A DNA stretch of 64,000 nt, from contig NZ_LT629740.1 of assembly GCF_900105165.1 (NCBI RefSeq), positions 4,216,001-4,280,000 on the forward strand. Direction: 5' to 3'. Both the position numbers and the translations under genes were made by a program. Position 1 is the first letter of the stretch; each line of letters opens with the position of its first letter. Below, one piece after another: positions 21,381-44,439 of the stretch. The notes under the pieces were generated by a model. It saw only the letters and a program-made list of their open reading frames with translations. It was not told where the DNA came from and searched no databases. Origin of the DNA: Mucilaginibacter mallensis. Its GTDB lineage: Bacteria; Bacteroidota; Bacteroidia; Sphingobacteriales; Sphingobacteriaceae.

Positions 21381-21400
21381 CCATTTAAAACAACAATAAC

Positions 21401-23254: not shown

Positions 23255-24064
23255 TTATATCTGATATATTTTCAATCTTTTAGCCTTTATTGATAGTTTG
23301 AAACATTCTGCATTAAGACTGAAATCTAAATGCGTTTTATAAAAATTTTTCATCCAATTAAGTTGCCAGTCATTGACATTGTAATGGTTAAATCTTAAGT
23401 CTGATAATTTAGCTATTACGCAGAAACCACCTTTCGCCGGTAGGCTATGAATGTTCCAAGCACCTGTTTCTAATACATCAAAATTATTATTTTTAATAAT
23501 ATGCTTTGGTCCCCAAAGTGAGGTGTCAATGTTGTCTATACATTTCACAATATGTGTGACAGATTTATCCAAATTATTGAAGCGATCATCAAACTTTTTC
23601 TGGAGCAGTAAAATATCTCCAACGTTTCGGGCGTCAAATTTTTTAATCCATTGCATCAGTGATCCTTTACAGTAAATAAATTCATCTATATCGATAAATG
23701 CAGTCCATTCTGATCTTTGCCCAAAATTTTCAATGTAATGAATAATGCATTCCTTTTGACCAAATATTATATTTCCGTTTCCATCAGTGGGCTCCCATTT
23801 AATATAGGTGATCATGTTACCATATTTGGAAAGTATTTTACCTAATAATAAATCCAATTCGGCATCGGAAATAAAATTTGTTAATTGCTTAAAATCATAT
23901 TTATACTTATTTATTCCAGGTGAACTTCCGTCATAGCCTTGTGATTTGGAATTATCATATAAGGTGAATTTTCGAATACCCAGTGCAGCATGGTAATCAA
24001 TCCATTCCTCTAGGAATAAAATATTTTCACGGAGAATGAAAATGGTATGAATGCTAATAGTCAC
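23255..24064 (-). CDS. Glycosyltransferase, GT92/DUF23-like
   Basis: The 269-residue protein begins at GTG 24064 with a ttagaa ribosome site; no upstream ATG is in frame. It resembles GT92 enzymes: a family-2-like start ILRENILFLEEWIDYHAALG, the block FGQKECIIHY, the metal-binding FIDIDEFIY and the late W-G-x-K-H-I region. GT-A-fold transferases of this kind move hexoses onto glycans or peptides. It is the most downstream gene of the minus-strand peptide-cluster operon, 236 bp after the GT4 gene, so it may have its own promoter. The acceptor is inferred to be the cluster peptide or a surface glycan. Confidence 0.75.
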   Translation of the reverse strand: MTISIHTIFILRENILFLEEWIDYHAALGIRKFTLYDNSKSQGYDGSSPGINKYKYDFKQLTNFISDAELDLLLGKILSKYGNMITYIKWEPTDGNGNIIFGQKECIIHYIENFGQRSEWTAFIDIDEFIYCKGSLMQWIKKFDARNVGDILLLQKKFDDRFNNLDKSVTHIVKCIDNIDTSLWGPKHIIKNNNFDVLETGAWNIHSLPAKGGFCVIAKLSDLRFNHYNVNDWQLNWMKNFYKTHLDFSLNAECFKLSIKAKRLKIYQI

Positions 24065-24224
24065 TTCTAATTAGTTAATTAACTTTTCACTTTTGCATTA
24101 TAAAGCCAGGATATAAATACCCATCAGTCAATACATTAGTAATCACATTTATATATTACTTACTTATAATTTAGTACGGATGAATGTTCATTACTAATGA
24201 AATTTGCTTAGATGTTAATCGATT

Positions 24225-24254
24225 CCCTCCTGTAAAAGGTTTTTTTACGGGGGT
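24225..24254 (-). terminator. Hairpin after the GT4 gene
   Basis: Inverted repeat ccctcctgtaaaa / ttttacgggggt with one internal mismatch and a short loop, 46 bp downstream of the stop at 24301 on the minus strand. There is no T-run after the stem, so it may pause or partly terminate. Confidence 0.3.
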
Positions 24255-24300
24255 AATTTATTCTCTCCTGAGGTTCAATTCAATTTTTAAATTCTGGTGA

Positions 24301-25569
24301 TTATTTAGGTTTAACTTCGATCACACACAATAACAATTCACGGTAGATCATTAATAATTTGTCACTCATGGTTTTGCTATTAAATTCTTCTATAATAGTA
24401 TTATAGGCATTGTTAGAAAGTCTTGCACCAATAGATTCATCATTAATTAGAGTGGTTATAGACTTCGTTAATGCATATATATCCAACCCGCTGGAATCTT
24501 TACCTTTAACCATCTTTATTTTTAAACATGACGTTTTATCATGTAGGATGTTTTTAAAGCCCTCAATATCACTGGCAATAATAGGCAGTCTATGGGCCAT
24601 CATTTCTAAAGCAACAAAACTATTTTGCTCATTTAAAGAAGGAAGAACCCCGATATCCGCGATGTTATAAATATTCGACAATTCACTTTTATCGAGGTAG
24701 CCGGTAAATAAAACCCTCGACCATATATCACTGCAACGACTTAAAAACATATCAAAATTACCATTGCCAACTATAATCAACTTAGTATTCTGATGGACTT
24801 TTAATACATCATGAAACGCATCAATTAAAAATTCTAAACCTTTACCTTGATTTAGCCTTCCAACATATAAAAGTATTTTATCTTTGTGATTAAAACCTAG
24901 TTTTCTCCTCATTTTTTTCTTTTTAAGAGAGGAGACTTGCGGTAGTATATTTGCGTTAAGGCCATTATTAATAATGATTACCCTACTGGGGGGTATTTGG
25001 TAGATTTCAATGACAAATTTATAAGCGTCATCCGTGAGGCAAATAACTTTATCGGCAATTTCACATAGCTTTTTTTCTTCTAATAAAGAATCAATTTTAT
25101 GACTTTCTTTGTTGTCTTGCCGGTTGTTCCATTCAAGAATAAATCGCTCATAGTCGTTTTTGTAAAAAAATCTCCATAACAGGATATGCATCGTATAAAC
25201 TACAAGGGCAGCGCTGTAATCTTTAGCCACAACGCCAATATTTGTCTGCATTACAGAATTGAGATGTAAAACGAATTTTTCCGACTTTCCAGTATGGCGA
25301 CTGATGATTGTATAAATTCCCCTTGCGAACAGTAAAGGAATATGAAACTCACTTCCAATATCTGAATTACCATTAATTGGAACCGGGATATGAATATGGC
25401 TAATAGAAGCCTTTTTTGTTCGAACCACGCTATTATAGAGCCTCGAATTAATATGAACATAATTAAAATCAATATCCTTATCCTTAAACTCAGGTATTAA
25501 GTTATTTACATAACTACCTATTCCATAACGTTGAGTTTTATCTGTAGTTTCAATAAAGTAAACTTTCAT
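24301..25569 (-). CDS. GT4-type glycosyltransferase of the peptide cluster
   Basis: The 422-residue GT-B enzyme opens with the family start IETTDKTQRYGIGSYVNNLI and has a C-terminal Rossmann half (KILLYVGRLNQGKGLEFLIDAF). The donor-binding ALEMMAHRLPIIASD follows, in which the usual E-x7-E is only partly kept. It resembles the Bacteroidota glycosyltransferases (recalled as TIGR04157) found beside GG-leader peptides. It sits 40 bp after the next glycosyltransferase, so co-transcription is likely. Peptide glycosylation is inferred from context. Confidence 0.82.
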   Translation of the reverse strand: MKVYFIETTDKTQRYGIGSYVNNLIPEFKDKDIDFNYVHINSRLYNSVVRTKKASISHIHIPVPINGNSDIGSEFHIPLLFARGIYTIISRHTGKSEKFVLHLNSVMQTNIGVVAKDYSAALVVYTMHILLWRFFYKNDYERFILEWNNRQDNKESHKIDSLLEEKKLCEIADKVICLTDDAYKFVIEIYQIPPSRVIIINNGLNANILPQVSSLKKKKMRRKLGFNHKDKILLYVGRLNQGKGLEFLIDAFHDVLKVHQNTKLIIVGNGNFDMFLSRCSDIWSRVLFTGYLDKSELSNIYNIADIGVLPSLNEQNSFVALEMMAHRLPIIASDIEGFKNILHDKTSCLKIKMVKGKDSSGLDIYALTKSITTLINDESIGARLSNNAYNTIIEEFNSKTMSDKLLMIYRELLLCVIEVKPK

Positions 25570-25609
25570 AGCAATATAAATTTTTAATTACCTACAAGTA
25601 CCAGCCGGA

Positions 25610-26389
25610 TTACAGCCAATTCCAAGTATTTATGTAATTGATTAATTGATCCCGGGAAGAGGTGACTATTCTAAGGTACTCCTGGTAATTTTTATTTGCA
25701 ACTACACCGGGAGGAAAATGAGAGTTGATTCCTCTGGGATGATCTAGATGAAATAATAAACCTTTTGTTCTAAATATTTGATATTCGAGTTTGGCAACCC
25801 GTTGAAATCTTTCCTTATCATCCGGCCCCCAGCCGTACAGGTGTTCATTTTCTAAGCCACAAATTATATAAAATGATTTGCTTGCGCCAAATACAGCACC
25901 AATCGAGTTAGGAAAAAGTAAGGTTAAACATTCAACATTCGACTCCAATATTTGAATAGCATATGTTTTAATGAATAAATTCCTGAATATGCCCGACACA
26001 TTAAAGAACTTTCCATCATAGGGATAGACCAGCGAATTCTTATTTTCTCGAATTAATGTTGCAGCTTCTTTGATCTGTTCTTTTGAAATAACAACATCAA
26101 CATCATAAATAAAAAAATTAGTTGTTTTACAATTTTTTATTAGGTGATTTCTATATCTCGTGGTATGTAAGATCTTGTTATCATCTTTTATGAAATCATA
26201 TGATATTTCAGAGGGTATCTGAAAATTTATTCTGGATATCGAGTCACATTCAATTAAATGAATTTGGGTGTTAAAATTTGTAAGCAAATAGGTTATAACT
26301 GCTGCTAAATTTTCTTGTCTTTCTCTCGAGTCAATGCGTACAAGCAATAGAAATGAAAAATCCATCAAGTCACATTTAGCGTTCCCCAT
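25610..26389 (-). CDS. GT-A glycosyltransferase, galactosyltransferase-like
   Basis: The 259-residue protein has FFIYDVDVVISKEQI, a D-x-D metal and sugar-nucleotide site (about 113-116), and near the end LYGWGPDDKERFQRVAKLEY. The latter is the WGWGxDDxD-type block of beta-galactosyl/N-acetylgalactosaminyl transferases. Its ATG overlaps the stop of the LanC-like gene (TAATG, one shared base), so translation is coupled, which ties it closely to the modification step. Sugar and acceptor are unknown. Confidence 0.78.
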   Translation of the reverse strand: MGNAKCDLMDFSFLLLVRIDSRERQENLAAVITYLLTNFNTQIHLIECDSISRINFQIPSEISYDFIKDDNKILHTTRYRNHLIKNCKTTNFFIYDVDVVISKEQIKEAATLIRENKNSLVYPYDGKFFNVSGIFRNLFIKTYAIQILESNVECLTLLFPNSIGAVFGASKSFYIICGLENEHLYGWGPDDKERFQRVAKLEYQIFRTKGLLFHLDHPRGINSHFPPGVVANKNYQEYLRIVTSSRDQLINYINTWNWL

Positions 26390-27441
26390 TATACAGCCAT
26401 TAAATAAATGTGTTCGTCCATAAAACTAGATTGAATGTTTCCCCCAAAAATCGCTATCCCGGCATTGGTTAAATCACTAAAAGAATAATTTGCTTGATGA
26501 ACTTTATTAAAAAATTCATATTGGGTGCCTTTCAGCTCATTTTCATAATATTTGTAAATATCCTGCTTCGACTGTCTAAGAAACTTTTTATTTATATATC
26601 TAAATATTTGACTCTCTCGAAAAGCCAGGCTAGACAGTTGAACACCTTTTAATTCTAAGTTATTTAAAACACGAAAAATTTTATTTTTTAAATTATTGTC
26701 ACATTTGATTTTTGCTATGTCAAAAACGGTAGATAGAAATAGAAGTTTCTCAACAGACATATCCTTTTCGTGTGATATTTGTTCAAATAAGTTTAAATCG
26801 ATAACCTCATTTATTTTTTCAAGTGAATACCCTTCATAAATTTGCGCTTCATAATTGCGAAGCAATATTTTCAAGTATGCCGAAACAATTCCATAATTAA
26901 TTGAATGCATGCCACTAATCTTAAGTTTTATTTCCTCAATAGCTATTATAAGATGCTCCGTTATTACCAGCATATCCCACTCTTGATCAGCAGTTGTCTT
27001 GTCCTTTAATCTTGCCTGGAGATAAAAGCATATGGATATTGAATCCAAAATAGAAATTTCTTTGGACTTATTTATTATTCCAATATAATCGAAAATGCGA
27101 TTGTCTATAAACGTTAATATCTCATCCCTATCCGCTTCGAAAAAATCTTGTTCAATAAGTTTAATAATCCAAATTCCTATTCCTGTAATTCCATCAAAAT
27201 AGTCCAGTGCTGGTGATATTTCCTTACCCGCTTCTTCAGCCAGTAATATTTCCAATAAAGCGAAAGCAAAATCCGCATATTCTTGTTTTGGTGAGTACCG
27301 CGAAAGCATAAAGAAATAAACGGCAATTCCCATCTTTCCACCATTTAAACTATTGTTTTCAACATAACACGAATTGACCAGAAATGCATTGGTAATCTTA
27401 TCTAGTAGAGGTTTGTTTTGATAAGCAAATTTTGGCATCAT
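26389..27441 (-). CDS. LanC-like (lanthionine synthetase C-like) protein of Bacteroidota type
   Basis: The 350-residue all-helical protein has the repeat-style blocks of LanC-like toroids: LNGGKMGIAVYFFMLSRYS (about 35), DYFDGITGIGIWIIKL (about 82) and NAGIAIFGG near the end. Known LanC cyclases bind zinc through Cys, Cys and His. No matching Cys-His pair is visible in the C-terminal part, and the protein has very few Cys. It may therefore be a scaffold or a non-canonical enzyme. No LanB dehydratase is encoded nearby. It is translationally coupled to the glycosyltransferase at 25610-26389. Confidence 0.65.
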   Translation of the reverse strand: MMPKFAYQNKPLLDKITNAFLVNSCYVENNSLNGGKMGIAVYFFMLSRYSPKQEYADFAFALLEILLAEEAGKEISPALDYFDGITGIGIWIIKLIEQDFFEADRDEILTFIDNRIFDYIGIINKSKEISILDSISICFYLQARLKDKTTADQEWDMLVITEHLIIAIEEIKLKISGMHSINYGIVSAYLKILLRNYEAQIYEGYSLEKINEVIDLNLFEQISHEKDMSVEKLLFLSTVFDIAKIKCDNNLKNKIFRVLNNLELKGVQLSSLAFRESQIFRYINKKFLRQSKQDIYKYYENELKGTQYEFFNKVHQANYSFSDLTNAGIAIFGGNIQSSFMDEHIYLMAV

Positions 27442-27514
27442 AAATAGTTAATAATAAATAATCAGTAGGAATTTGGTGAAATACAGTTATACCTATAAGA
27501 TATAGCTGTTTTCG

Positions 27515-28255
27515 TTAGTGATTAATATTTTCGAAGATGTTATTCATCAATCTTTTTAGTACAGTTTGATTTTGTGTTATAATGCCAGCATCACCCATCA
27601 TACCATCCCTTAGTATTAATAATTTGCGCGTGTCTGTTAAATTGTTTGGATTAAAATCTACCTCTGCAATATATTCATCTTCATTGTCCGCACTATTAGT
27701 AATGTATTTTATTTTGCCATGGAATATGCCATATTCTTGATAAGGATAACTTCTCAATTTTATCATTACCTCCTGTTGTTCTTTGACTTCGTTCAAGCTA
27801 GCTTTTGGCACCAACATTTCACCAAAAAAGTCTTGCCCACCCTCATATATAAAAAACAAAACCTTATTAAGTACAAGCTCCTGATTTTTATGAATTATTC
27901 CCGCGTAGGTTAAATGTCCGGTTTGTGATGCCACAACGTTAATCATCCCGGTATCGCTTTTAATAACAGCAAGTATTTGTCCTTTTTTAACCTCTTGATT
28001 ATTATCTACTAACAGTTTGGCCAATTTCCCATACTTTACTGCTACGATTGTATGAGGTAAAGTAAGTGAGCGGATTTTTAATGTGGTTTGGACAACGTCG
28101 GGATATTGTATTATTTCTGATACCGCTAAAATTAATACCAATACAGCAAAAAATAAAGTAATCCCCCAACGCAATAACCACGAAGGGGGAGCACTGATAA
28201 TTTCTTGTATTTCTTCGATATGTTTTTGCTTGTTTTCCTGATCTACAATATCCAT
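27515..28255 (-). CDS. HlyD-type periplasmic adaptor for peptide export (short form)
   Basis: The 246-residue protein has one N-terminal membrane helix (about 29-48; GITLFFAVLVLILAVSEII) and a biotinyl/lipoyl-like hairpin (KYGKLAKLLVDNNQEVKKGQ, about 93). A beta-barrel half contains LRSYPYQEYGIFHGKI. Typical HlyD proteins have over 400 residues; the long alpha-helical hairpin is missing, as often seen with Bacteroidota peptide exporters. The gene starts 19 bp after the ABC exporter stop, so both form one export unit spanning the periplasm. Confidence 0.88.
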   Translation of the reverse strand: MDIVDQENKQKHIEEIQEIISAPPSWLLRWGITLFFAVLVLILAVSEIIQYPDVVQTTLKIRSLTLPHTIVAVKYGKLAKLLVDNNQEVKKGQILAVIKSDTGMINVVASQTGHLTYAGIIHKNQELVLNKVLFFIYEGGQDFFGEMLVPKASLNEVKEQQEVMIKLRSYPYQEYGIFHGKIKYITNSADNEDEYIAEVDFNPNNLTDTRKLLILRDGMMGDAGIITQNQTVLKRLMNNIFENINH

Positions 28256-28274
28256 AATTATTCACAGAAGTAAA

Positions 28275-30452
28275 TTATACACCGAGTTCTAATTGATTTT
28301 TCACCAATTTAAAATATTCTCCTCTTAAATTGGTAAGTTCATTATGAGAGCCCTCTTCAATGATTTTGCCTTTATCTAAAACGATAATATTATCGGCATT
28401 ACTTACAGTACTCAGCCGATGCGCAACAACTACAACCGTTCTTCCTCTACAGAATTCTTTTAGATTATCCATTATTATTCGTTCATTATTCGCATCCAAA
28501 GCATTCGTTGCTTCATCAAAAAAAAGATAATGGGGATTTTTATAAACAGCCCTAGCAATTAACAATCGTTGCTTTTGCCCTTGGCTAATTCCACTACCCG
28601 CCGTACCGATTTTGGTTTGTAATCCAAAAGGCAATTCTTCAATAAAATCTCCGATGTTAGCAATCTTTATTGCTTGTTCTAATTTCTCTTTCTCGGGAAA
28701 CTCATCACCCACGGCTATGTTGGCGGCAATACTATCTGCAAAAATAAATCCGTCCTGCAACACAGTTCCACATTGACTTCGCCAGAATTTAAAACTAAGC
28801 TGGTTTAATCTGGTTTCGCCTACTCTAATTTCACCTATTTCAGGTTCAAAAAACCTTAAAAGCATTTTAAGAACGGTAGTTTTACCACTACCGCTCATAC
28901 CAACAATTGCTGTCGTTTTTCCTTCAGGAATATGTAAGTTGATATTTTCTAAAACAGGATCATTGCCGGCGCCTGGATAGCGAAAGGTAAGCCTGTGTAT
29001 ATTGATGCTTTTATTGGCTGGCATCACGCTTACCCAATTTCTATCCGGCGATTCCTCATCTTCAATGTCGTGGATTTCATTTAATCGTTCCAAACTAATT
29101 TTTGCATCTTGATAACCTTGTATAAGACCGAGCATTTGCTCTACAGGACTGTTTACCTGGCCAACAATATATTGAATTGCCATCATACCACCTAATGTGA
29201 TTTGTCCGTCAATAACAGCTTTTACACTTAGAAAGGTTATTAATATATTTTTGCCCTGGTTAATAAACATTGAACCTGCTTGTTGGAATTGATCAAGAGC
29301 AAGACTCTTTACTTTAAATTTAAACAAGCTGGCTTGTACGTGTTCCCACCCCCAGCGTTTTTGCTGCTCACAGTTGTTTAATTTAATTTCTTGTATGCCG
29401 CTAACTAATTCAATAATTGTACTCTGATTAGCTGAAAAATAATCAAATTGCTTATAATTGAGGTTACGTCTCCGCTTGAGAAAAATCACTATCCATCCAG
29501 TATATAAAACCGTGCTTATTATTGAAACGCTAAAAATAACCAAATTGTAATATGCCAGTATAACGATGAATATAACTAGGTTAAAGACGGAAAAAACTGC
29601 ATTTAATGCAGTTCCTGTTAAAAAACTTTCTATCTTCTGTTGATCGCTCATTCGCTGCATAATATCTCCAGTTGTTTTAGTTTCAAAATAACTAAGCGGA
29701 AGTTTCATGAGCTTCATTAAAAAATCAGTGAGAATCGAAATATTAATTCGTGAACTAACATGAAGCAGTATCCATGATCTTATAAAATTAACACTGGTAC
29801 TGCCAAAAAAAAGCATGACCTGCGCAATTAAAATGAGGTAGACGAAATTAAGATTACGAGTATTGATACCAATGTCCACTAACGATTGGGTAAGAAATGG
29901 AGTTATCAATGAAAGCAGCGAACCTACCGTCAGGCCAATTAATAATTGAATAAATAATTTTTTATAAACATAGAAATAGCGGAGGACGGACCACCAATTT
30001 GATTTAACCCTTTTTTCTTGATCTTTTTCAAAAAACTCTGGAGTTGTACCTAATAATAAAGATATCCCATCATGGAGCTCTTTATGGCTAAACCAATTTT
30101 TTCTAAATTGCTGATAAGATAAAGTGATCAGACCATCTGCGGGATCAGCAATATAAAACCTGTCTTTTTTCACTTTGTAAAGAATAACGAAATGGTTCTG
30201 CCGCCAATGAAGAATACAGGGTAATTGCACTTCCTTTAACTGATCAATAGTAAGCTTTACGCCAATTGTTCTGAAGCCAATTTGTTCCGCAGCTTCACTC
30301 AAGCCTAATAAATTAACCCCATTCCGTGTAATCTTGCAAATAGTTCTTAATTTTTGTATGGAATAATTCCGCCCGCAATACTTAGCCATCATACGAAGGC
30401 AAGTTGGGCCGCAATCCATTTTATCTTGTTGTTTATAGTATGGAAATTTCAA
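28275..30452 (-). CDS. Peptidase-containing ABC exporter (PCAT) for double-glycine peptides
   Basis: The 725-residue protein has an N-terminal C39 peptidase domain (1-135) with Cys14 in MDCGPTCL, His in NHFVILYKV and Asp in IADPADG. Six membrane helices follow (about 160-440). The nucleotide-binding domain has Walker A GMSGSGKTT, signature SGISQGQKQR and Walker B LFFDEATNALD. It should cleave the leader of the precursor after Gly-Gly and export the core. The start is TTG at 30452, because the family-typical start KFPYYKQQDKMDCGP begins there. It heads the minus-strand operon, divergent from the oxidoreductase and precursor genes. Confidence 0.95.
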   Translation of the reverse strand: MKFPYYKQQDKMDCGPTCLRMMAKYCGRNYSIQKLRTICKITRNGVNLLGLSEAAEQIGFRTIGVKLTIDQLKEVQLPCILHWRQNHFVILYKVKKDRFYIADPADGLITLSYQQFRKNWFSHKELHDGISLLLGTTPEFFEKDQEKRVKSNWWSVLRYFYVYKKLFIQLLIGLTVGSLLSLITPFLTQSLVDIGINTRNLNFVYLILIAQVMLFFGSTSVNFIRSWILLHVSSRINISILTDFLMKLMKLPLSYFETKTTGDIMQRMSDQQKIESFLTGTALNAVFSVFNLVIFIVILAYYNLVIFSVSIISTVLYTGWIVIFLKRRRNLNYKQFDYFSANQSTIIELVSGIQEIKLNNCEQQKRWGWEHVQASLFKFKVKSLALDQFQQAGSMFINQGKNILITFLSVKAVIDGQITLGGMMAIQYIVGQVNSPVEQMLGLIQGYQDAKISLERLNEIHDIEDEESPDRNWVSVMPANKSINIHRLTFRYPGAGNDPVLENINLHIPEGKTTAIVGMSGSGKTTVLKMLLRFFEPEIGEIRVGETRLNQLSFKFWRSQCGTVLQDGFIFADSIAANIAVGDEFPEKEKLEQAIKIANIGDFIEELPFGLQTKIGTAGSGISQGQKQRLLIARAVYKNPHYLFFDEATNALDANNERIIMDNLKEFCRGRTVVVVAHRLSTVSNADNIIVLDKGKIIEEGSHNELTNLRGEYFKLVKNQLELGV

Positions 30453-31111
30453 TGCTTTATATAATTAACATCCTATATCATTAGGTATTGTTTTTTTGAG
30501 AATCCATCTGAAGATTTAATTAAAAAAATTGAACTCTTATATCTCATATGTATTTATTTATAGATGTCCTAAATCTTTTTTTTCAAGTAATAAGGCCCTA
30601 AAAATTCAAAAAAAATTACAATTAAAGGTTCAGGAGTTTTGCTTAAAGCATAAGGAATATCCGTAATCTCCATTAGCTAAGATATAAAAAAGTTGTGTCA
30701 TTATGTTCTTGTCTTTATTCTTTCATTAGAGGAAAGCCACTGGAAGCTCAAATCTAACTTCCAAATAGCTGCACGGTTTAGCCGTCCTTACCAATATCGG
30801 GCATATATACCAGTCAAAATATATTTTGCACGATTATACATGTACATTATTAAAGTTGTGTCCTTTTATTTTCTTCAAGCCCTACGCAATACAGCCTTAT
30901 ACTTTCGATATTTAGATTATCAATATCTGTAAAAAAGAAATCAGACTACAATTGGAATATATAACAAACGAATTTATAACATTATTAACGGACTTAATTT
31001 TATGCCAGATCATTTTTAGCTACTTTATTTGGTTTTTCATAGGGTTATCTAGTATATTTACCTTATAAGCATTTCTGTCCTAAGCGATAATGCTTTTGTA
31101 ACCTTAGCCTA
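30453..31111. promoter_or_regulatory. Divergent AT-rich control region of the peptide cluster
   Basis: Its 659 bp separate the minus-strand export/modification operon from the plus-strand oxidoreductase-precursor genes and must hold both promoters. A 79-codon plus-strand frame (30693-30932) lacks a credible ribosome site and domain. I searched by eye for an additional GG-leader peptide on both strands and found none. Confidence 0.4.
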
Positions 31112-32683
31112 ATGAAAAAAGATAATATCATAAGTGTTTTGCATTTACTTATTAAGGAGTTGCACATTCCCGTAACTAGTCAAAGCGTAGAAGATGAACT
31201 GCAAAAACACCCTGAATTTAACAGTCTATTGGGAATTAGTGATGTATTAAACAACTGGAATGTCCCTAATGTAGCCTACGCACTAAGTTTTGACGAGTTA
31301 AGTGATGCAGATATCACCGACCCTTTCATCGCATATTTATCTGAAAAGCAGTTTGCATTGGTGCATAGCTTAGATAGCAAAAAAGCGATTGTATCTGACG
31401 AAACCTGGAGCAGATACGTTTTACCTATTGACGAATTTAAGAGAAAATATGCAGGAACTATATTGGTTGCTGAGAAAGATCACGATTCCGGAGAGAGAAA
31501 TTACGTAGCAAACCGGCAGAAAGAGATAGCGGCAAAACTCCGAATTCCATTTGTTATAACTAGCTGCATAATCTTTACGTTTTTTTTCATTCTTCACAAA
31601 TCCGATAGATATGATTTTAATGGAGATGTGATTTTTTTGAATGCTATTAAATTGCTTGGTTTAACTACTACAATATTATTACTTATCCAAAGTGTGGATG
31701 CTACCAATCCACTAATACAAAAACTCTGTGGTGGTGATGATAATGAAAATTGTAATGCCATATTATCATCAAAGTCTGCTAAAATAACCGATCAGCTAAA
31801 TTGGTCGGAACTAGGATTCTTTTATTTTTCAGGCACCTGGCTGGCATTATTTTTTATTGGTGATAACAGCGTGATGAGAGTTTTGGCCATCTTAAATTTA
31901 ATGTGTCTGCCTTATACATTTTATTCGATTTATTACCAGTGGCGGATTGCTAAGCAATGGTGTAAATTTTGCTGTGTTGTACAAGGTTTATTATGGCTCG
32001 AATTTGGCGGCTTTCTTCCTTTTTTAATGAATACTATAAAGTTGCCTAGTTTAGCAGAGTGGGCTAATTTGATAATTACAATGATGATTCCTATCATATT
32101 ATGGATATTTGTCAAACCGTACATAGTATTATCTGGGCAAGTTCAGCCATTGATACTACAGCTGCGAAATTTTAAATATAGCAGCGATCTGTTCAACAAG
32201 ATGCTCCATAGTGGAGCTAAGTATAGTTTGCCCAAAGAGGAGTATTCGCTGATTATTGGTAATCGACAAGCAGAGCATACAATCACGATGGTTTCAAATC
32301 CGTATTGTCAGCCTTGTTCAAAAGCGCACACCGCAATGGAATGGATTCATAGCCGGAATGATGTCAAACTGCAAGTTGTTTTTGTGGTCAATAAAGATGA
32401 TGATGACAAAAAGGTGGGGGTTGTCACCCGTTTGATGTCACTACAGTCGGAGCAAAATGATTTGTCGTTAAAATTTGCACTTGATGATTGGTATGAAAAC
32501 AAAAATTACGAAAGCTGGACTAAACGACACCCAGTCAAAAACCTTGCCTCTTATTCAGAAGCGCTACAAAAACAAAGTGAATGGTGTAGCATAGCAGAAG
32601 TTGCAGCGACTCCGACAATATTTATTAATGGGCGTAAGCTTCCTGCAAATTATCAACCCGAAGATATAAAATATCTTATTTAG
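31112..32683 (+). CDS. VKOR-thioredoxin disulfide oxidoreductase with degenerate C39 N-domain
   Basis: The 523-residue three-part protein starts with residues 1-120, which follow the C39 peptidase fold (YLSEKQFALVHSLDSKKAIV) but have no catalytic Cys or paired His. Residues about 148-335 are a VKOR membrane domain with Cys206/Cys214 and the redox pair Cys284-x-x-Cys287. Residues about 388-523 form a DsbA/thioredoxin-like domain with Cys399-Gln-Pro-Cys402 and the cis-Pro TPTIF. It should form disulfides in the periplasm, with quinone as acceptor. It is the gene just upstream of the Cys-rich precursor, so oxidative folding of that peptide is the likely job. The inactive C39 domain may bind the leader (inference). 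Confidence 0.88.
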   Translation: MKKDNIISVLHLLIKELHIPVTSQSVEDELQKHPEFNSLLGISDVLNNWNVPNVAYALSFDELSDADITDPFIAYLSEKQFALVHSLDSKKAIVSDETWSRYVLPIDEFKRKYAGTILVAEKDHDSGERNYVANRQKEIAAKLRIPFVITSCIIFTFFFILHKSDRYDFNGDVIFLNAIKLLGLTTTILLLIQSVDATNPLIQKLCGGDDNENCNAILSSKSAKITDQLNWSELGFFYFSGTWLALFFIGDNSVMRVLAILNLMCLPYTFYSIYYQWRIAKQWCKFCCVVQGLLWLEFGGFLPFLMNTIKLPSLAEWANLIITMMIPIILWIFVKPYIVLSGQVQPLILQLRNFKYSSDLFNKMLHSGAKYSLPKEEYSLIIGNRQAEHTITMVSNPYCQPCSKAHTAMEWIHSRNDVKLQVVFVVNKDDDDKKVGVVTRLMSLQSEQNDLSLKFALDDWYENKNYESWTKRHPVKNLASYSEALQKQSEWCSIAEVAATPTIFINGRKLPANYQPEDIKYLI

Positions 32684-32772
32684 AGTATTTAACAATATGA
32701 AGATGCCTGCCTTCGGTAAAACAGGATAGGGAAAGCTGCAACCCAATTAATAGAGGCAAAAAACGCGAGAAA

Positions 32773-33006
32773 ATGAAAAAACTAAAACTAAAACTTGATG
32801 GCGTTAAGGAAACGCTGACTAGGGACCAAATGAAGAAAATTTATGGTGGTTATAGCGATTGCGCTGGTTGTTGTTGTGTGCATAGTTGTGGCGGTACCGA
32901 CTGGGATTGCGGATATTCCATGGCTAAAGCGAAAAGCGACGCAGCCAAGGAGGGTAAATGTTGGTGCTGTGACTCGTGCTCTGCACCGGCTCCTTGTGAA
33001 TGTTGA
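32773..33006 (+). CDS. Cys-rich peptide precursor with double-glycine leader
   Basis: The 77-residue product has residues 1-26 as a typical Bacteroidota GG leader: MKKLKLKLDGVKE, then LTRDQMKKIYGG with hydrophobic residues at the expected spacing before Gly25-Gly26. The remaining 51-residue core has 12 Cys, at core positions 4, 7, 8, 9, 13, 20, 37, 39, 40, 43, 49 and 51, several as CC or CCC. It also has Ser, Thr and Gly-Gly stretches. The C39 exporter at 28275 should process it, and the VKOR-thioredoxin protein 90 bp upstream could oxidize it. Ser/Thr or Cys could be glycosylated by the cluster transferases. No homologue is recognized; a bacteriocin or signalling role is inferred. Confidence 0.85.
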   Translation: MKKLKLKLDGVKETLTRDQMKKIYGGYSDCAGCCCVHSCGGTDWDCGYSMAKAKSDAAKEGKCWCCDSCSAPAPCEC

Positions 33007-33089
33007 AATTAGCGGGGTCATAGGATTTCCTGTGACCCTAAGTTGTTGATTTGTTTAATAGTCTTTATTTAGATACACAAAACGTTCAT

Positions 33090-33950
33090 ATGACAGTCAT
33101 TAATGTAAATTTTATCTATTTATTGTTTTTTATTTTACCGGTCGCGGTAGATGCGCAAAATGTGCAGCAGAAAAGTGCCCGTGTCCCAAGTACTGTAAAA
33201 GTCGACGGCCTTTTACAGGAGTGGGGAAGTCTTCAGGCGAATAATAGTTCAAATAGAATACGTTACACAATTAGTAACGACGACGACAATCTTTATCTTG
33301 CCATACAATCTTCTGGTGTATGGTGCAATGCTAAAATTGCACATGGAGGTATAACGTTAATTATCAGCCAATCAGTAGATAAAAAGATTAGAGAGAAAGC
33401 TGCAACAAACGTTTCTATCACTTTCCCTGTGATTGACAAAGCAACGGCTTCCGGTATAAATGCTAAGCAATATGGATATTTTGATATCGCCGATGAAAAA
33501 TCAAATGATTCCAAAAAAAAGATGGACTCTTTGTACAATGCTGTTAATCTATTGGTAAATAATTCATTTAAAGAAATAAAAATTATTGGAATAAAGGATA
33601 TTGACACGCTGGTTTCTGTTTACAATACTTATGGAATTAAAGCTGCTGCACAATTTAGTAAGCAAATGTTATATTGCTATGAATTAGCAATACCATTAAA
33701 ATATCTGGGGCTTACAATCGATAATCTTGTACCATTTAGTTATAGCATCCGATTAAATGGTCCAACATTTGGAAAGCGCACTTCCACAAGAAAAATATAT
33801 AATACGGAAGATCCGAATGACGTACCTACGACTGAATTATCACCAAATTTTGATGGAAGCAAGGCAATAAATCCTGAGTCCTTTTATAAAAATTATCCTT
33901 CAAGTCTTTGGGCTGAATATACATTGGTAAAAGACAATTCAAACAAATAG
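33090..33950 (+). CDS. Secreted CBM9/DOMON-like beta-sandwich protein
   Basis: Starting at ATG 33090 gives a clean signal peptide (MTVINVNFIYLLFFILPVAV, cleaved near DAQ). A TTG at 33051 would add 13 residues before it and is less likely. The mature start (VKVDGLLQEWGS ... NDDDNLYLAIQSS) is the opening of CBM9-type sugar-binding domains, but the binding Trp pattern is incomplete. About 287 residues. It follows the precursor by 84 bp and is likely in the same transcript. It could bind a sugar on the peptide or anchor it to a surface; the function is not known. Confidence 0.6.
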   Translation: MTVINVNFIYLLFFILPVAVDAQNVQQKSARVPSTVKVDGLLQEWGSLQANNSSNRIRYTISNDDDNLYLAIQSSGVWCNAKIAHGGITLIISQSVDKKIREKAATNVSITFPVIDKATASGINAKQYGYFDIADEKSNDSKKKMDSLYNAVNLLVNNSFKEIKIIGIKDIDTLVSVYNTYGIKAAAQFSKQMLYCYELAIPLKYLGLTIDNLVPFSYSIRLNGPTFGKRTSTRKIYNTEDPNDVPTTELSPNFDGSKAINPESFYKNYPSSLWAEYTLVKDNSNK

Positions 33951-33986
33951 TATCTCCATTTATTCTTTAACCTGACGGTGTGCTGG

Positions 33987-34018
33987 CAGATAAAAAAGCA
34001 GACCGTGGTTTTTATCTG
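33987..34018. terminator. Convergent terminator hairpin
   Basis: Perfect 10-bp inverted repeat cagataaaaa / tttttatctg around a 12-nt loop between the convergent genes ending at 33950 and 34158. A and T runs inside the stem suit both directions. Confidence 0.55.
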
Positions 34019-34157
34019 TGGTAAAATGGTTTGCTAAATATACGGCTTATGCAAGAATAAGAATACAATCCAATGGATTTATAGCAACACGGGTTCAATA
34101 TACAGACATTTGAAATCTTAATAATGATCCGTTGAATACTTAATTCGCCAAATTCGA

Positions 34158-37022
34158 TTAATGGATAAAGCTACCATCACCTCTCCTATGCATTTCTTTG
34201 CCATTTCGTGTTGGTGTGCCACCCCATTTTTGTAAGTTCAGAATCAATCCAAAAAGAAAATATCTACTTAGAGAGTTCGATGTGGTATTGATTACCTGTT
34301 GCGGAGTCACAATTTGCTGGACAAAATCATTTTGATGCAATAGGTCAAAGACACTAAATGTTAAAGTTAAGTTCTTTTTTGCCAAAAATTTGCTTTGTAA
34401 TCCAGCATTAATTACTAACGGGTTAGTGTTATAACCTGCTATTCCACTAATGTAGTTTTTGGAAATATTACAGTTGAATTGAAAGGTGCTTAAAAAATAA
34501 ACTCTAGCGTCAATAACAAATGAAGTTCTGCTATATGTAGTCGGGCTTAGATCGTAAAGCGACGTGAATGTCTTGCTTAGATCAAAATTAACATAGGGGT
34601 TTATTTGAACATTTTCATTCGGATTTATTTTTGATCCAAGGCGTTCATTAAAAGACCATCCTGTCGTGTGATATAACAGATCGTTGCTCATAGCGCTTGT
34701 TATATTATAGGTAACATTACCATTTAATTCTACGCTGTATTTGTAATCTTCAAGTTGTTTAGAAATATCATATCTGCCAGTCACCGATTTTGTTCCGTTA
34801 AGATTTACATAATGAATTTCATTAATACTTTGATAGGTATTTTTACTTGTATCGGAATTATTAAGAACAAGTGGAATACGCTTTTGTAATATGTTAGTAG
34901 ATATTTGATCATCAACATTCGTTGCATTCAAATTCAAGGATATGTTAATTTTAGAGTCTGGTATATATTTGTTGTAGTATGCATTAACAGAATTGTTAAA
35001 AGAAGGTCTAAGGTTGGGGTTGCCGATTACTATATTTCGGGGGTCAGATTTGTCTGTAAATGGCTGAAGATAAAGAAAATTAGGCTCGATATAACCACCT
35101 GAATAGCTTAATTGAAATCTTTCTGTTGGTGATAGAGCATATTGGAAACGAAATGACGGTATAATTCTAAAGCTGGAACGTGAGGTGCTTATGTTCAATT
35201 CTGTGTTATCGTCAATTTTGGTGCCTCCTATCGAATAAGTAACAGCAGCTGTTCCGATTGTTAAATCAAGCTTCTTGCCATTATATCGGTAATTCATTGT
35301 CAAATGTAATTGTGTTGTATTATAATTATAAAAATTATCTAAATTGGTTAGTTCTTTGAGGTACCCATTAGACAATACTGTATCTTGAACAAATGCGGAT
35401 TTGTTATAAGACTGTCTCAAATCACCTCTAAATTCTAACTGCGAAACGATACCTATAGGCTCGACATATGTTGCTGTGGTTTGAAGTACAAAATTTCTGT
35501 TTTTTTGCTTCGTCAATAAATTTACAGCTGAATCTTTTAGCAAAATATCCGATGTACTATCCGAGTAAAAACGGTAGTCTTTGTCAGTTGCTCCTTTTAC
35601 AGTTGAATTTTGATCGGAAGCACTTAATTGTAAAGATAAATTCCTTCTTGGTTTTTTAAATATATGAATATACAACCCAGTAATACTATAGTTGCTCTTT
35701 GTGCTCAGATCCGAACTTGTTCCAATATCTGTATTGTGTTCAAAACCTGTCGTATAGTCATTTAAGTAATCTTGTGTTCCAGTATTATTAATGGCAATAT
35801 TAGAATAACCAAACGTTGAATTTAACTCTAAAAAATTAGCACTATCTATGTTAAATTGAACCTGAACAGCAGCTTTTTGGTTTTTACTGTTAACTAGTGA
35901 TGTATTATGTTCATCAAAATTACTAGGGCCAAGACTCGTGTAATTTTGCCCATAATCATTATTTAAAGCTGTATTATTTGTGAAGTCATAGCTGTAACTG
36001 CTTACAATTTGAACGTTCTTTCCTAATTGATCTGCGTAACTAAATATTGGTCCTCCTAATTTGGTATATCCAGGGCTGCCGTTGGCGCTAGTTGAAATTT
36101 CATCATTAGCGGTTGTTGCGCCAATCTGATTTGGCACTGAAGCGACACCATTCACAGTATTCTTAAAGTCACCTATTATACTTAGTACTTTATCTGCATT
36201 TATATGTTGCAATGAGATTTGCCCGTCATACCTGTCATCATTTCCCACCTGTCCACTCGCTTTAACAATCGTACCCAATGATTTGTCAGAATAGGTGGCC
36301 ACATTCAATATTTTTTTGGGGTCACCTTCTTTAATGCCTGTACGGGCAGCTTGGTCACCATAATCATCAACAATTTGCACTTTCTCAACAATATCTGCAG
36401 GTAAATTTTGTATTGCTTGTGCAACGTTGCCTCCTGCAAATTCTTTTCCATTTAACTTTACACCAGTTACTTGCTGGCCCTGATATATTAATTTCCCATC
36501 CATACCAACATCCATGCCCTCCATTTTCTTCAATAACTCATCCAAGGTGGCATCCTTAGGTACTTTATAATCTTTGGCGCGATACTCAACTGTATCTTTT
36601 TTATATAAGATACTTGGTGTCCCATTTATAGTTACCTGTTTTAGTTCGTGGGGCTGGGCTTCAAGAATAATTGGGTCCAACACAGAGTTACTTTTTTCCT
36701 CATTAAAAAAATATTTCTGTATAAATGTTTGTAAACCTATAAAGGAAACGGTGATATTAAATGTTGCAATCTTTACATAGTTAAAAACAAAAATGCCATC
36801 ATTATTAGTGGTAGTTATTAGCGTGTCTTTCCTTGATTTAAGAATTACCTTGGCGCCGGGTAATGGTTGACTATTCTCGTCTTTAACAATACCGCTTACT
36901 TGATGCGAGATTAAAGGTATTGGTTCAGACGGCAATTTATTTCGGCTTGGACTTTGTTGGCTTTGAGCGGATAGCTTGCATATGGACATAAACATAATCA
37001 TAATTGCAAGTATTAGTTTCAT
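34158..37022 (-). CDS. TonB-receptor-like outer-membrane beta-barrel protein
   Basis: From ATG 37022 the protein (954 residues) has the signal MKLILAIMIMFMSICKLSAQ. It then has a carboxypeptidase-D-like domain (VSGIVKDENSQPLPGAKVIL) and a plug-like region (LDELLKKMEGMDVGMDGKLI, AQAIQNLPADIVEKVQIVDD). A long barrel (OMP_b-brl_3 type) follows. An in-frame TTG at 37061 is less likely. It is the last gene of the peptide region and converges on the precursor transcript. Such barrels serve uptake, and a few accompany peptide clusters. Here it might export, take up or sense the peptide, or be unrelated cargo. Confidence 0.85.
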   Translation of the reverse strand: MKLILAIMIMFMSICKLSAQSQQSPSRNKLPSEPIPLISHQVSGIVKDENSQPLPGAKVILKSRKDTLITTTNNDGIFVFNYVKIATFNITVSFIGLQTFIQKYFFNEEKSNSVLDPIILEAQPHELKQVTINGTPSILYKKDTVEYRAKDYKVPKDATLDELLKKMEGMDVGMDGKLIYQGQQVTGVKLNGKEFAGGNVAQAIQNLPADIVEKVQIVDDYGDQAARTGIKEGDPKKILNVATYSDKSLGTIVKASGQVGNDDRYDGQISLQHINADKVLSIIGDFKNTVNGVASVPNQIGATTANDEISTSANGSPGYTKLGGPIFSYADQLGKNVQIVSSYSYDFTNNTALNNDYGQNYTSLGPSNFDEHNTSLVNSKNQKAAVQVQFNIDSANFLELNSTFGYSNIAINNTGTQDYLNDYTTGFEHNTDIGTSSDLSTKSNYSITGLYIHIFKKPRRNLSLQLSASDQNSTVKGATDKDYRFYSDSTSDILLKDSAVNLLTKQKNRNFVLQTTATYVEPIGIVSQLEFRGDLRQSYNKSAFVQDTVLSNGYLKELTNLDNFYNYNTTQLHLTMNYRYNGKKLDLTIGTAAVTYSIGGTKIDDNTELNISTSRSSFRIIPSFRFQYALSPTERFQLSYSGGYIEPNFLYLQPFTDKSDPRNIVIGNPNLRPSFNNSVNAYYNKYIPDSKINISLNLNATNVDDQISTNILQKRIPLVLNNSDTSKNTYQSINEIHYVNLNGTKSVTGRYDISKQLEDYKYSVELNGNVTYNITSAMSNDLLYHTTGWSFNERLGSKINPNENVQINPYVNFDLSKTFTSLYDLSPTTYSRTSFVIDARVYFLSTFQFNCNISKNYISGIAGYNTNPLVINAGLQSKFLAKKNLTLTFSVFDLLHQNDFVQQIVTPQQVINTTSNSLSRYFLFGLILNLQKWGGTPTRNGKEMHRRGDGSFIH

Positions 37023-37332
37023 ATTATAAAAATTACCTATTGGTATCGTTTGACGTTGCAATTGCTCTGTCGACTATTGTTAACTTAAATTTCAAGTAGA
37101 TTTGATATGCCCATTATTTTGATGGACTCTCTGAAATCTACCATTTTATGATTTGGCTGTCATTATTCAATTATGGTTAAAATTCGGTTAATTCTAAAGT
37201 ATAATTCTAAAAAAATTAAATTCGACCTGTGCATGAATATTTGAATCGTTGGTTACCCCATACTAAGTATGAAATTAAATCTGTTAGAAAGACTTGACCA
37301 AGATTAAGATTTATGCATTTGCTAACCGAAAC

Positions 37333-37976: not shown

Positions 37977-38957
37977 CTACCTGCTTACCCCCTGCGAGTG
38001 GGACTGCTCGGCTTCATGTTTTTTCCTTTTTCGCCGGGCTATATCTGCATCGCCCATTGGGTCTGGGGCGGCTGCGACAAATTGCGGCTCTAATAGAATT
38101 TGCAGCAAGCCTTTACCACCATCGGGACTATGGCGGTACTCTGAATGTACACTTTGCCGGATGGCCTCCCGTAACTGGCTGGCCAGTGATGACTCATTGG
38201 CTTGTCTTGCTGCATGGTATTGTTGTACCTGCTGATTGCGGTTTAAAGTCGCATCTATCTGGACATAGCTCAAACTTCGGTCTATGGCAGAACCTTTTAT
38301 TTTGATGTCTCCCTTTTCAAAAGAAACTCCTTGTACCTCGCTGGTACCACTACGGAATTTATAAGCGATGTTAATGTCCTGTTTTGCCAGTGCCGCTTCC
38401 AATTCTTTCCAGGTGGTTGCCGTTTTCATTGCGGCCTTAATTGCATCATAAAGTTCATACCTGATCTTCTCTTTGCCTTTCAAGGCTTGGCGGTTTACCT
38501 GTTCCTTGCCTTCGCCCAAATGGTAGCCATACTTCAAGGTGATTTCCTTACAGGCTTTCACATTTTTAGCGAAGTTGTTTTTATCGCTAATTGTCTTACC
38601 ATTATTGTCAACGCGGTTATAGATCAGGTGCAAATGGGGGTGATCCCGGTCGCTGTGCCGTACCACTACAAATTGCGTATCACGGATACCTACTTTTTCT
38701 AGGTACTCCTTGGCCCGTTCTACCATGATCTCATCACTCAGTTTGTCTAAATCTTCCTTACTCCAACTCAGCACCAGGTGACCGACTGCTTTCCCCAGTT
38801 CCGGCCTCATTTTCCGTTGCAAATTAAAGTCGTGCGCCAAGGTACCGGCGTTCTGCATCCGCACACCCTCTGCTGCCAATATCTTAGCTTGCTGCTTATC
38901 CACCACGTAGCGGATACAGCCACCGAAGCTTCTTCCCGTAATTGGCTTACCCATCAT
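37977..38957 (-). CDS. Relaxase/mobilization nuclease
   Basis: The 326-residue relaxase has the three-His metal motif HSDRDHPHLHLIYNR (about residue 104) and an N-terminal block GKPITGRSFGGCIRYVVDK in the usual place. The catalytic Tyr is probably among those near the N-terminus, but which one is not clear. It nicks oriT and pilots the strand during transfer. Its ATG overlaps the mobC stop by about 11 bp, so translation is coupled. With no transfer apparatus on the element, mobilization must use a helper. Confidence 0.92.
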   Translation of the reverse strand: MMGKPITGRSFGGCIRYVVDKQQAKILAAEGVRMQNAGTLAHDFNLQRKMRPELGKAVGHLVLSWSKEDLDKLSDEIMVERAKEYLEKVGIRDTQFVVVRHSDRDHPHLHLIYNRVDNNGKTISDKNNFAKNVKACKEITLKYGYHLGEGKEQVNRQALKGKEKIRYELYDAIKAAMKTATTWKELEAALAKQDINIAYKFRSGTSEVQGVSFEKGDIKIKGSAIDRSLSYVQIDATLNRNQQVQQYHAARQANESSLASQLREAIRQSVHSEYRHSPDGGKGLLQILLEPQFVAAAPDPMGDADIARRKRKKHEAEQSHSQGVSR

Positions 38958-39324
38958 GGCTACTGATTTTGGTTAATATTTCTTCGATCTGCCTCAGCAT
39001 AGCTTGGCATTTTAGAGCCAGGGAGAATAGTCCTGCTACGTGTGCCAGATGCGTGAGCTGATTAAGGTTATTAGCCAGCCCTGCCAGCATCCTGAACCAG
39101 CCGCTTTCTTCCGGAGTAAAACGCGGAAAAACCTTGGCGCTTTTAGCAGCCCTACGGAACCATTCACTCGGTTTCAGTCCGGCATTTTTCGCCCTGCCTT
39201 CAATCAACATCTTTTCAGTAGGCGTTAATCGTATCATCAAAAGATCGCTCCGACTGATTGTTTTCTTTGGCCGTCCCGGTGTTCGCCGCTTCGGTAAATT
39301 GTTTTTTTCAGATGTTGCTGCCAT
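38947..39324 (-). CDS. mobC: MobC-like relaxosome accessory protein
   Basis: The 125-residue basic protein has a ribbon-helix-helix-like N-half (SDLLMIRLTPTEKMLIEGRA, then GLKPSEWFRRAA) and a helical C-half with the conserved block LAGLANNLNQLTHLAH. This is the Bacteroidota MobC pattern. It helps the relaxase open oriT. It is the first gene of the minus-strand mobilization operon, directly next to the hairpin-rich putative oriT. Confidence 0.88.
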   Translation of the reverse strand: MAATSEKNNLPKRRTPGRPKKTISRSDLLMIRLTPTEKMLIEGRAKNAGLKPSEWFRRAAKSAKVFPRFTPEESGWFRMLAGLANNLNQLTHLAHVAGLFSLALKCQAMLRQIEEILTKISSHDG

Positions 39325-44295: not shown

Positions 44296-44415
44296 TTCTG
44301 CAAATTTTCTGCAAATAATTCGGGTATTTTTCTTATATTTGACTTATGCAAGATGCTAAATATCAGTATATTAATACAATTTATGCTATTTTTACTTTTA
44401 TGTAGTTCTGCAAAT
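44296..44415 (+). promoter_or_regulatory. Three ttctgcaaat repeats before integrase B (candidate arm-type sites)
   Basis: Identical 10-mers lie at 44296-44305, 44307-44316 and 44406-44415. The first two are 11 bp apart, exactly as in the different 10-mer set of element A. Related tgcagaa and gcaaattctg sequences lie left of the att core near 44015-44090. Confidence 0.45.
44334..44341 (+). promoter_or_regulatory. Promoter -7 box TAtaTTTG for integrase B
   Basis: Matches the Bacteroidota consensus TAnnTTTG, 99 bp upstream of the integrase ATG. The -33 element is not clear. Confidence 0.4.
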
Positions 44416-44439
44416 TTATTCATTTTAATCGTTTTTATC

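Follow-up and report, generated by a model that had tools for sequence, protein, structure and literature searches.

The window analysed here, a stretch of 64,000 nucleotides from the Bacteroidota species Mucilaginibacter mallensis, carries a gene cluster (23255-37022) that is well supported as an export system for disulfide-bonded peptides, and whose distinguishing component is a membrane disulfide oxidase fused to a C39 peptidase domain that has lost its catalytic cysteine. An earlier note, made from the letters alone, had read this cluster as a new class of glycosylated, disulfide-rich exported peptide on a mobilizable element. All of the cluster components that it claimed are present in their places with the domains assigned to them, but its claim of a separate type holds in part, as what sets the type apart is different: the pseudo-C39 oxidase, together with a pair formed by a LanC-like pseudo-cyclase and a glycosyltransferase, marks it as separate, whereas the number of transferases does not. 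The precursor peptide (32773..33006, plus strand) is a 77-residue open reading frame (ORF) with a 26-residue leader ending in IYGG, the double glycine (GG) occupying positions 25-26, and a 51-residue core with 12 cysteines. The oxidase, a 523-residue fusion of pseudo-C39, VKOR and DsbA-type thioredoxin domains, is encoded on the same strand at 31112..32683.

Relatives were collected with two anchors, the fusion protein and the LanC-like protein. Among 201 genomes from the same family, 56 had a match to the fusion, the own genome being one of them, and the 73 fusion stretches comprise 60 fetched by the fusion alone (L083-L142), 11 first fetched by precursor similarity (L035-L044 and L047), a second locus of the own genome (L006), and the window itself. 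Controls were 20 random stretches from genomes of the same family. Since L141 shows the same locus as L035, L142 overlaps L037, and L138 lies next to L110, the count of 70 deduplicated loci leaves out L035, L142 and L138. The LanC-like protein was sought in named genome contigs, yielding 48 loci, 46 of them with a gene of at least 200 codons; counts from this set are lower bounds, and several of the contigs are short.

The earlier note had described a VKOR-thioredoxin oxidoreductase, which is indeed present, but had missed its N-terminal pseudo-C39 part. Pfam assigns C39 (E 2.6e-9), VKOR and Thioredoxin_4 domains to the protein, and in the structural model (mean predicted local distance difference test score, pLDDT, 86) residues 1-124 adopt a C39 fold (Z 15.8 over 123 residues against 6mpz, a leader-bound double-glycine protease), residues 168-310 a VKOR fold (Z 13.6), and residues 368-523 a ScsC/DsbA thioredoxin fold (Z 17.7). 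Each of the redox cysteines 206, 214, 284, 287, 399 and 402 is conserved in 69-70 of the 70 fusions, and the first four supply, within the VKOR fold, the loop cysteine pair and the CXXC motif of that family. The catalytic cysteine of the C39 domain, on the other hand, is lost, none of the 68 residues read at that column (of the 70 fusions) being Cys or His. Comparison of the whole fusion with PDB sequences by phmmer gave no match, and a profile comparison with the PDB ranked thioredoxins and PCAT1 above VKORs (VKOR E 0.05-0.4). One homologue (L138; G320 C1 4308124-4309694) appears to be split in three frames, and is a possible decayed copy.

Inactive C39-like domains have been described as substrate recruiters (PMC6363468). 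For instance, the C39-like domain of HlyB (PDB 3zua; PMC6363468), which the model resembles at Z 13.1, is likewise inactive and thought to recruit substrate, but sits on an ABC transporter, whereas that of the window sits on a disulfide oxidase. In a similar manner, the C39 domain of the fusion, itself inactive, would hold the GG leader of the precursor. No paper on a C39-VKOR-thioredoxin fusion appeared among the open-licence titles and abstracts listed, a limited basis.

That the fusion serves peptides is indicated by the genes beside it. A profile of GG leaders found matches in 48 of the 60 fusion-only stretches, and in 61 of 73 overall, as compared to none of the 20 random stretches, and in 45 of the 57 loci with both genes the precursor shares the strand of the fusion and lies no more than 450 nucleotides downstream of it. 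The number of cysteines is even in 84 of 91 distinct cores (nominal p-value of 4e-18, the sequences being related), a count that omits five precursors missed by the splitting pattern and includes a few GG peptides with one to three cysteines that may belong to other systems. Six cysteines is the most frequent number (51 cores), followed by eight (19 cores); 12 occur only in the window peptide. A separate set, anchored on the LanC-like protein and collected with a generic leader pattern and at least four cysteines, holds 29 precursors in 23 of 46 loci and none in the 20 controls, and the cysteine number is even in 25 of the 29. Because the leader profile recurs beside the fusion and the cores have even cysteine numbers, the products are very likely disulfide peptides, bearing out the disulfide-rich exported peptide that the earlier note proposed. 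Weighing against this is the absence of a leader-profile match in 12 of the 73 stretches, two of which are second views of loci with the precursor outside the stretch; weak candidates are present in L133, L134, L135 and L137.

The leaders are hydrophobic at positions -4, -7 and -12 in 79 of 79 precursors (those of the 91 with at least four core cysteines), although a hydrophobic residue at -7 and at -12 was a requirement of the splitting pattern, and all three positions are favoured by the search profile. In the window leader these are I-4, M-7 and L-12, and in the structure of LahT with its leader the same positions enter the C39 groove (PMC6363468). The window precursor itself has matches in 13 further genomes of the 201. 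Its core ends in CWCCDSC, and WCCDSC recurs in L044 and twice in L193 (Draconibacterium), with altered tails in L038 (WCCDNC), L186 (Cyclobacterium; YCCDSC) and L210 (Algoriphagus; WCCDQC). Both L186 and L210 carry a PCAT, HlyD, the fusion, the LanC-like gene and GT7C. Thus, recurrence of the tail motif in L193, L186 and L210 indicates that the core, and not just the leader, has relatives in other genera; a search with CC[DN]xC also matched two small ORFs unlike precursors (L098, L139). The window precursor had no NCBIfam match at E 0.1, and ten of its relatives all fell below the 25-bit cut-off of TIGR04149, the family of GG peptides modified by radical SAM enzymes (best 20.2). A precursor match in genome G440 (L045) is likely false, as it crosses a TAG codon and has no fusion in its stretch, while that in G450 (L046) is precursor-like and is accompanied by two CBM9-like genes and no fusion in the stretch.

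The exporter is a PCAT of 725 residues (28275..30452, minus strand), with C39, ABC_membrane and ABC_tran domains, and is followed by a short HlyD-type membrane fusion protein of 246 residues (27515..28255, minus strand) recognised by Pfam and NCBIfam. As the earlier note had it, the C39 triad of the PCAT is intact: Cys14, His87 and Asp103 are invariant in all 54 aligned proteins, that of the window included. A PCAT is found in 56 of 73 fusion stretches and HlyD in 54 of 73, against 1/20 and 0/20 controls, and the window combines the triad with a leader of the GG/AG type, hydrophobic at -4, -7 and -12, as in PCAT-exported peptides. The PCAT would cut after the GG and, together with HlyD and an outer-membrane channel whose gene lies elsewhere, export the mature peptide, a step that follows from established PCAT biology and the intact triad.

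The exported peptide would most likely have a competitive, bacteriocin-like role. It could instead be a signal, an adhesin or a structural peptide of the surface, an alternative that leaves every step of the mechanism but the last unchanged and that deserves some credence, though the lesser share of it. No immunity gene was recognised, and the precursor is followed by genes for a probable accessory, an exported protein without a Pfam match (33051..33950, plus strand) that we take, from reading its sequence, to be CBM9-like, and for a possible accessory, an OMP_b-brl_3 outer-membrane barrel with a carboxypeptidase-regulatory domain (Pfam; 34158..37061, minus strand). The order precursor, CBM9-like gene, outer-membrane protein is kept in L035, and a CBM9-like homologue lies 3' of the precursor in L083 and L098 as well as L035. 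However, the gene logic of bacteroidetocins is similar, and they kill although no immunity gene is known for them (PMC6671954). In several loci (L040, L041, L084, L092, L118 and others) an exported TlpA-like redoxin or GLPGLI-like protein follows the precursor, perhaps a partner or immunity gene particular to each peptide.

Where the core is oxidised depends on the orientation of the fusion in the membrane. An extra hydrophobic helix precedes the VKOR core in 69 of 70 fusions, and lysines plus arginines average 10.0 on the active-site side and 3.2 on the other (59 fusions against 7, with 3 ties, in 69). A second set of 23 fusions, 22 from other genera, collected with the LanC-like anchor, plus that of the window, gives 13.3 and 2.7 (22 against 1), whereas the bias is reversed in VKORs of the same phylum without C39 (3.9 and 8.2; 4 against 13 of 17). 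By the positive-inside rule, these loop charges predict that the active site, the thioredoxin and the pseudo-protease face the cytoplasm. The window fusion shares with ordinary VKOR-thioredoxin fusions the VKOR core, the C-terminal thioredoxin and all redox cysteines, and differs from them in the N-terminal pseudo-C39 domain, the added helix and the reversed charge bias. The DsbA-type thioredoxin and VKOR would oxidise the core on the cytoplasmic face, as the reversed charges and extra helix predict, passing electrons to quinone. A natural VKOR of inverted topology exists in archaea.

Oxidation of the core in the cytosol is possible to likely, with the chances about evenly balanced. Several points weigh against it. 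The topology comes from a simple hydropathy script, with helix counts that vary from 4 to 9, and no net charge bias (-0.1) is seen in the segment just ahead of the extra helix. The charge controls are 17 VKORs of unproven topology, four of them exceptions, and the positive-inside rule itself has exceptions. Moreover, the periplasm is the usual place of DsbA-type domains, and conditions in the cytoplasm are normally reducing. With an ordinary VKOR topology, the disulfides of the core would form on the periplasmic side, either in the course of export or afterwards, and the pseudo-C39 domain, carried outside by the extra helix, would be a chaperone or a relic. The known bacterial VKOR and DsbA systems do act outside the membrane, and exported TlpA-like redoxins are frequent neighbours, the AhpC-TSA family accounting for 16 of the 96 proteins scanned around fusion loci and for 2 of the 106 from controls. 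(These Pfam tallies cover the 25 commonest families. The neighbours are 96 of 100 non-core ORFs of 200-700 codons from 12 loci drawn at random from 66, four ORFs at stretch ends having been dropped; the controls are 106 ORFs of the same size from 10 of the 20 control stretches, one end-running ORF having been dropped.) This topology is rather unlikely, because the loop charges have the opposite bias in 59 of the 69 fusions of the first set and 22 of the 23 of the second, and because a leader-binding C39 domain outside the membrane would find nothing to bind if cleavage by the PCAT takes place in the cytoplasm.

Three glycosyltransferase genes lie on the minus strand: GT92-like (23255..24064; PF01697 E 4.9e-10, DID motif at residue 125), GT4 (24301..25569; best NCBIfam family TIGR04157 at 313 bits, below its 400-bit cut-off, with E314-x7-E), and GT7C-like (25610..26389, 259 residues; PF02709 at 22.6 bits against a 23-bit cut-off, with DVD at residue 96). 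The motifs, DxD in GT92 and GT7C and E-x7-E in GT4, are of the kind we take to be catalytic. None could be identified as a SunS-type S/O-glycosyltransferase, as GT92 and GT7C have no NCBIfam match at E 0.1 and TIGR04157 ranks first for GT4 among the best 25 of 39 families. The three transferases named in the earlier note are thus all present, but what recurs in the class is an optional module, since glycosyltransferase-like ORFs were detected near only 32 of 70 fusion loci (0/20 controls). Class-wide glycosylation is ruled out by this count. The families also vary by locus, including GT25, GT2, GT61, GT4, Gly_transf_sug, Branch and DUF6625 (of unknown function), and among the 96 neighbour proteins Pfam finds GT25 seven times and GT2, Branch and DUF6734 (of unknown function) twice each; no glycosyltransferase family had two or more matches among the 25 commonest families of the 106 control proteins, in which single matches could be unseen. 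Judged from sequence, glycosylation is an exchangeable add-on with a presumed peptide target. Near some HlyD and GT2 genes lies a further family, c21 (about 280 residues; L083 14296-15129, L141 16184-17053, L121 6652-7524), two members of which had no Pfam match above cut-off.

The GT7C-like gene overlaps by one nucleotide with that of the LanC-like protein (26389..27441, minus strand; 350 residues). A glycosyltransferase gene directly adjoins 35 of 58 copies of the LanC-like gene, with a gap of less than 50 nucleotides in 32 of the 35, and the neighbours elsewhere are a GT7C relative in 23/58 copies and GT4 in 12/58. Relatives of the cluster do not, then, consistently lack the precursor or the transferases, a finding that would have spoken against the original reading. 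A GT7C relative is present in 28 and a GT4 relative in 14 of the 46 LanC-like loci. The genera of the set include Algoriphagus, Cyclobacterium, Draconibacterium, Fodinibius, Mucilaginibacter, Capnocytophaga, Tannerella and Hoylesella; no fusion was detected in those of the last three genera. In L176, L197, L198 and L201 (Capnocytophaga felis, Tannerella forsythia and two Hoylesella) the PCAT, HlyD, LanC-like and GT7C genes stand in a row, and the LanC-like gene is shorter (233-236 residues) in L176, L197 and L198. The recurrent adjacency in operons suggests that the pseudo-cyclase presents the same precursor to GT7C, and that GT4 and GT92 may extend or add sugars.

Glycosylation of the peptide in the window copy is likely, as far as the gene arrangement allows it to be judged. 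Set against this are the 38 of 70 fusion loci in which no transferase was detected, so that sugars are not needed by the class, and the fact that it is gene order that ties the transferases to the peptide. In addition, the profiles behind the count of 32 were built from these same loci, the independent Pfam comparison covers 10 controls and 12 loci, and the LanC-like gene is sparse: of 296 genomes drawn from the phylum, 6 have it, one of these being the own genome. The serine plus threonine content of cores offers no clear sign of acceptor sites, at 0.209 in 34 cores with a transferase locus and 0.192 in 57 without. The transferases and the LanC-like protein could alternatively serve a surface glycan or a cell-wall acceptor, with the peptide modified by disulfides only. 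The loci without transferases, the wide variation of families, and the want of an evident acceptor site are all compatible with such a role, yet the LanC-anchored loci keep a PCAT (33 of 46), HlyD (31) and the fusion (23), and no polysaccharide flippase or polymerase was noticed in the loci looked through, none having been searched for specifically. With LanC-like and transferase genes accompanying PCAT, HlyD and fusion in many genera, a surface-glycan cluster is not favoured and appears unlikely.

The LanC-like protein has no Pfam match by itself, but its relatives L048 and L049 exceed the PF05147 cut-off, profile comparison with true LanCs gives a probability of 98.7% (E 2e-16), and its model (pLDDT 77) matches MadC at Z 22.0 over 325 residues and NisC at Z 20.9 over 315, as compared to about 12-13 for sugar epimerases and GH76 (glycoside hydrolases about 12.6). 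On the basis of these profile, family and model matches, the protein has a true LanC fold, an alpha/alpha toroid. The zinc motif CYG/CHG/CCG, which supplies the ligands Cys and Cys-His, is found in none of 30 family members and in 3/3 true LanCs, so the protein cannot act as a cyclase in the way known for LanCs. An active cyclase with a remote dehydratase, making a lanthipeptide, would suit the LanC fold and cysteine-rich core but is rejected on the zinc ligands and very improbable, as the even cysteine counts fit disulfides better and the ten cluster proteins contain no LanB dehydratase, as the note had stated, and no LanM by Pfam or NCBIfam (for two of them among the best 25 matches).

As LanC enzymes bind leaders (PMC9889658), the protein is inferred by analogy to be an adaptor for the glycosyltransferase. 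The SH2-like domain assumed to bind the leader (PMC9889658) is not seen in the helical model, which weighs against an adaptor. No description of the LanC-like/transferase pair together with the fusion appeared among the open-licence titles and abstracts listed, to which this statement is limited. A second LanC-like family, c26 (about 270 residues), scores 95.6% to LanC and 97.7% to the window family in profile comparison and in four of four loci (L131, L136, L123, L125) adjoins family c19, of 480-507 residues. One c19 member matches GT7C, and one that was scanned has no Pfam match; c26 and c19 are perhaps a second pair of pseudo-LanC and transferase.

Taken as a whole, the order of docking by the leader, cytosolic oxidation, glycosylation guided by the pseudo-LanC, and cleavage and export by the PCAT is slightly favoured. 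A broader reading, that of a class spread over many Bacteroidota genera in which a natural inverted VKOR with a dead leader-protease makes disulfides in the cytoplasm and a dead LanC docks a glycosyltransferase, is more tentative. If it holds, a protease and a cyclase, both former peptide-processing enzymes, have become modules for recruiting substrate.

The earlier note had compared the cluster with the glycocins sublancin and glycocin F. Glycocins in general resemble the window system in having a precursor, a PCAT, thioredoxin-like proteins, a transferase and disulfides, but have one glycosyltransferase and separate thioredoxin-like proteins, with 7 and 8 cysteines in the precursors of two cases (PMC12457901). 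The window differs in belonging to Bacteroidota and in its three transferase families, membrane oxidase fusion and LanC-fold protein. Bacteroidetocins are closer in that they are Bacteroidota peptides with a GG leader and cysteines, cleaved and exported by a PCAT, and deletion of a thiol oxidoreductase gene attenuates the toxin (PMC6671954). Their leaders, however, have 15-16 residues and the peptides mostly four cysteines, as against 26 and 12 in the window, and a separate protein with five transmembrane segments and an oxidoreductase take the place of the single fusion (PMC6671954); no word beginning with 'glycosyl' occurs in the main text of PMC6671954. By these comparisons, the window system is related to bacteroidetocins and glycocins and is a member of neither.

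Clusters of Bacteroidales that combine radical SAM and LanC-like genes also have GG precursors and LanC-like proteins without the zinc motif (PMC10352776). Of three LanC-like clusters in that account, one has glycosyltransferases (BGC3) and another a PCAT (BGC4), so that a LanC-like protein lacking the zinc motif and a LanB, once with transferases, is already known and is not new alone. These clusters carry radical SAM and pseudo-radical SAM genes, of which there are none among the ten window proteins, and no VKOR fusion was met in the account (PMC10352776). Their LanCs are suggested to be endoglucanase-like (PMC10352776), whereas the window model is closer to true LanC than to glycoside hydrolases.

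A pseudo-C39/VKOR/thioredoxin protein beside GG peptides with even cysteine numbers offers a recognisable signature for a large set of disulfide peptides that Bacteroidota secrete, of which no description was met in the open papers searched, and the LanC-like/transferase pair with PCAT and HlyD reaches the oral genera Tannerella and Capnocytophaga. Two propositions can be tested: that a natural VKOR carries out cytoplasmic oxidation of peptides held at the same time by a domain that binds their leader, and that a dead LanC acts as a substrate adaptor for a glycosyltransferase. If true, these would be useful for making disulfide peptides and glycopeptides in laboratory bacteria, and possibly for narrow-spectrum antibacterials.

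The window copy is probably on a mobilizable element, because a MobA/VirD2 relaxase (37977..38957, minus strand; PF03432 E 3.9e-35), a NikA/MobC mobilization protein (38947..39324, minus strand; from a domain scan), an HTH_17 protein and a tyrosine integrase (44353..45726, plus strand; PF13102, PF00589), which likely belongs with them, adjoin it beyond the cluster. The element proposed in the earlier note therefore stands for this copy but not for the class, as relaxase relatives occur in 4/73 fusion stretches and 1/20 controls and are not clearly enriched. A DUF2806 protein (42233-43165) lies between the mobilization genes and the integrase. The region is flanked on one side by an IS21-like pair (19827-22147), an integrase-type transposase and what we take by eye to be its ATPase, and on the other by an IS110 transposase (46586-47584). 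Position 37022, where the earlier note ended the cluster, is an ATG within the minus-strand frame 37061-34158 of the outer-membrane barrel. A promoter motif, TANNTTTG, gave 68 matches against 86 expected and is uninformative.

Elsewhere in the own genome, a third PCAT (L007, 6186-16001) adjoins a 386-residue protein taken for an ordinary HlyD and lies about 4 kb from a CBM9-like/outer-membrane protein pair resembling that of the window, in a stretch where neither the fusion nor a GG-leader cysteine peptide was found. A second copy of the system (L006, 9609-14169; genome 3987608-3992168) has the fusion, a PCAT, a 165-residue protein and a 58-residue precursor with 8 cysteines, with no glycosyltransferase recognised. 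In L042 (8034-19876), a fusion cluster with a 6-cysteine precursor, DUF6625, PCAT and HlyD, and with GT61 and GT4 nearby, adjoins genes for a relaxase and a small protein, both with relatives on the element in the window.

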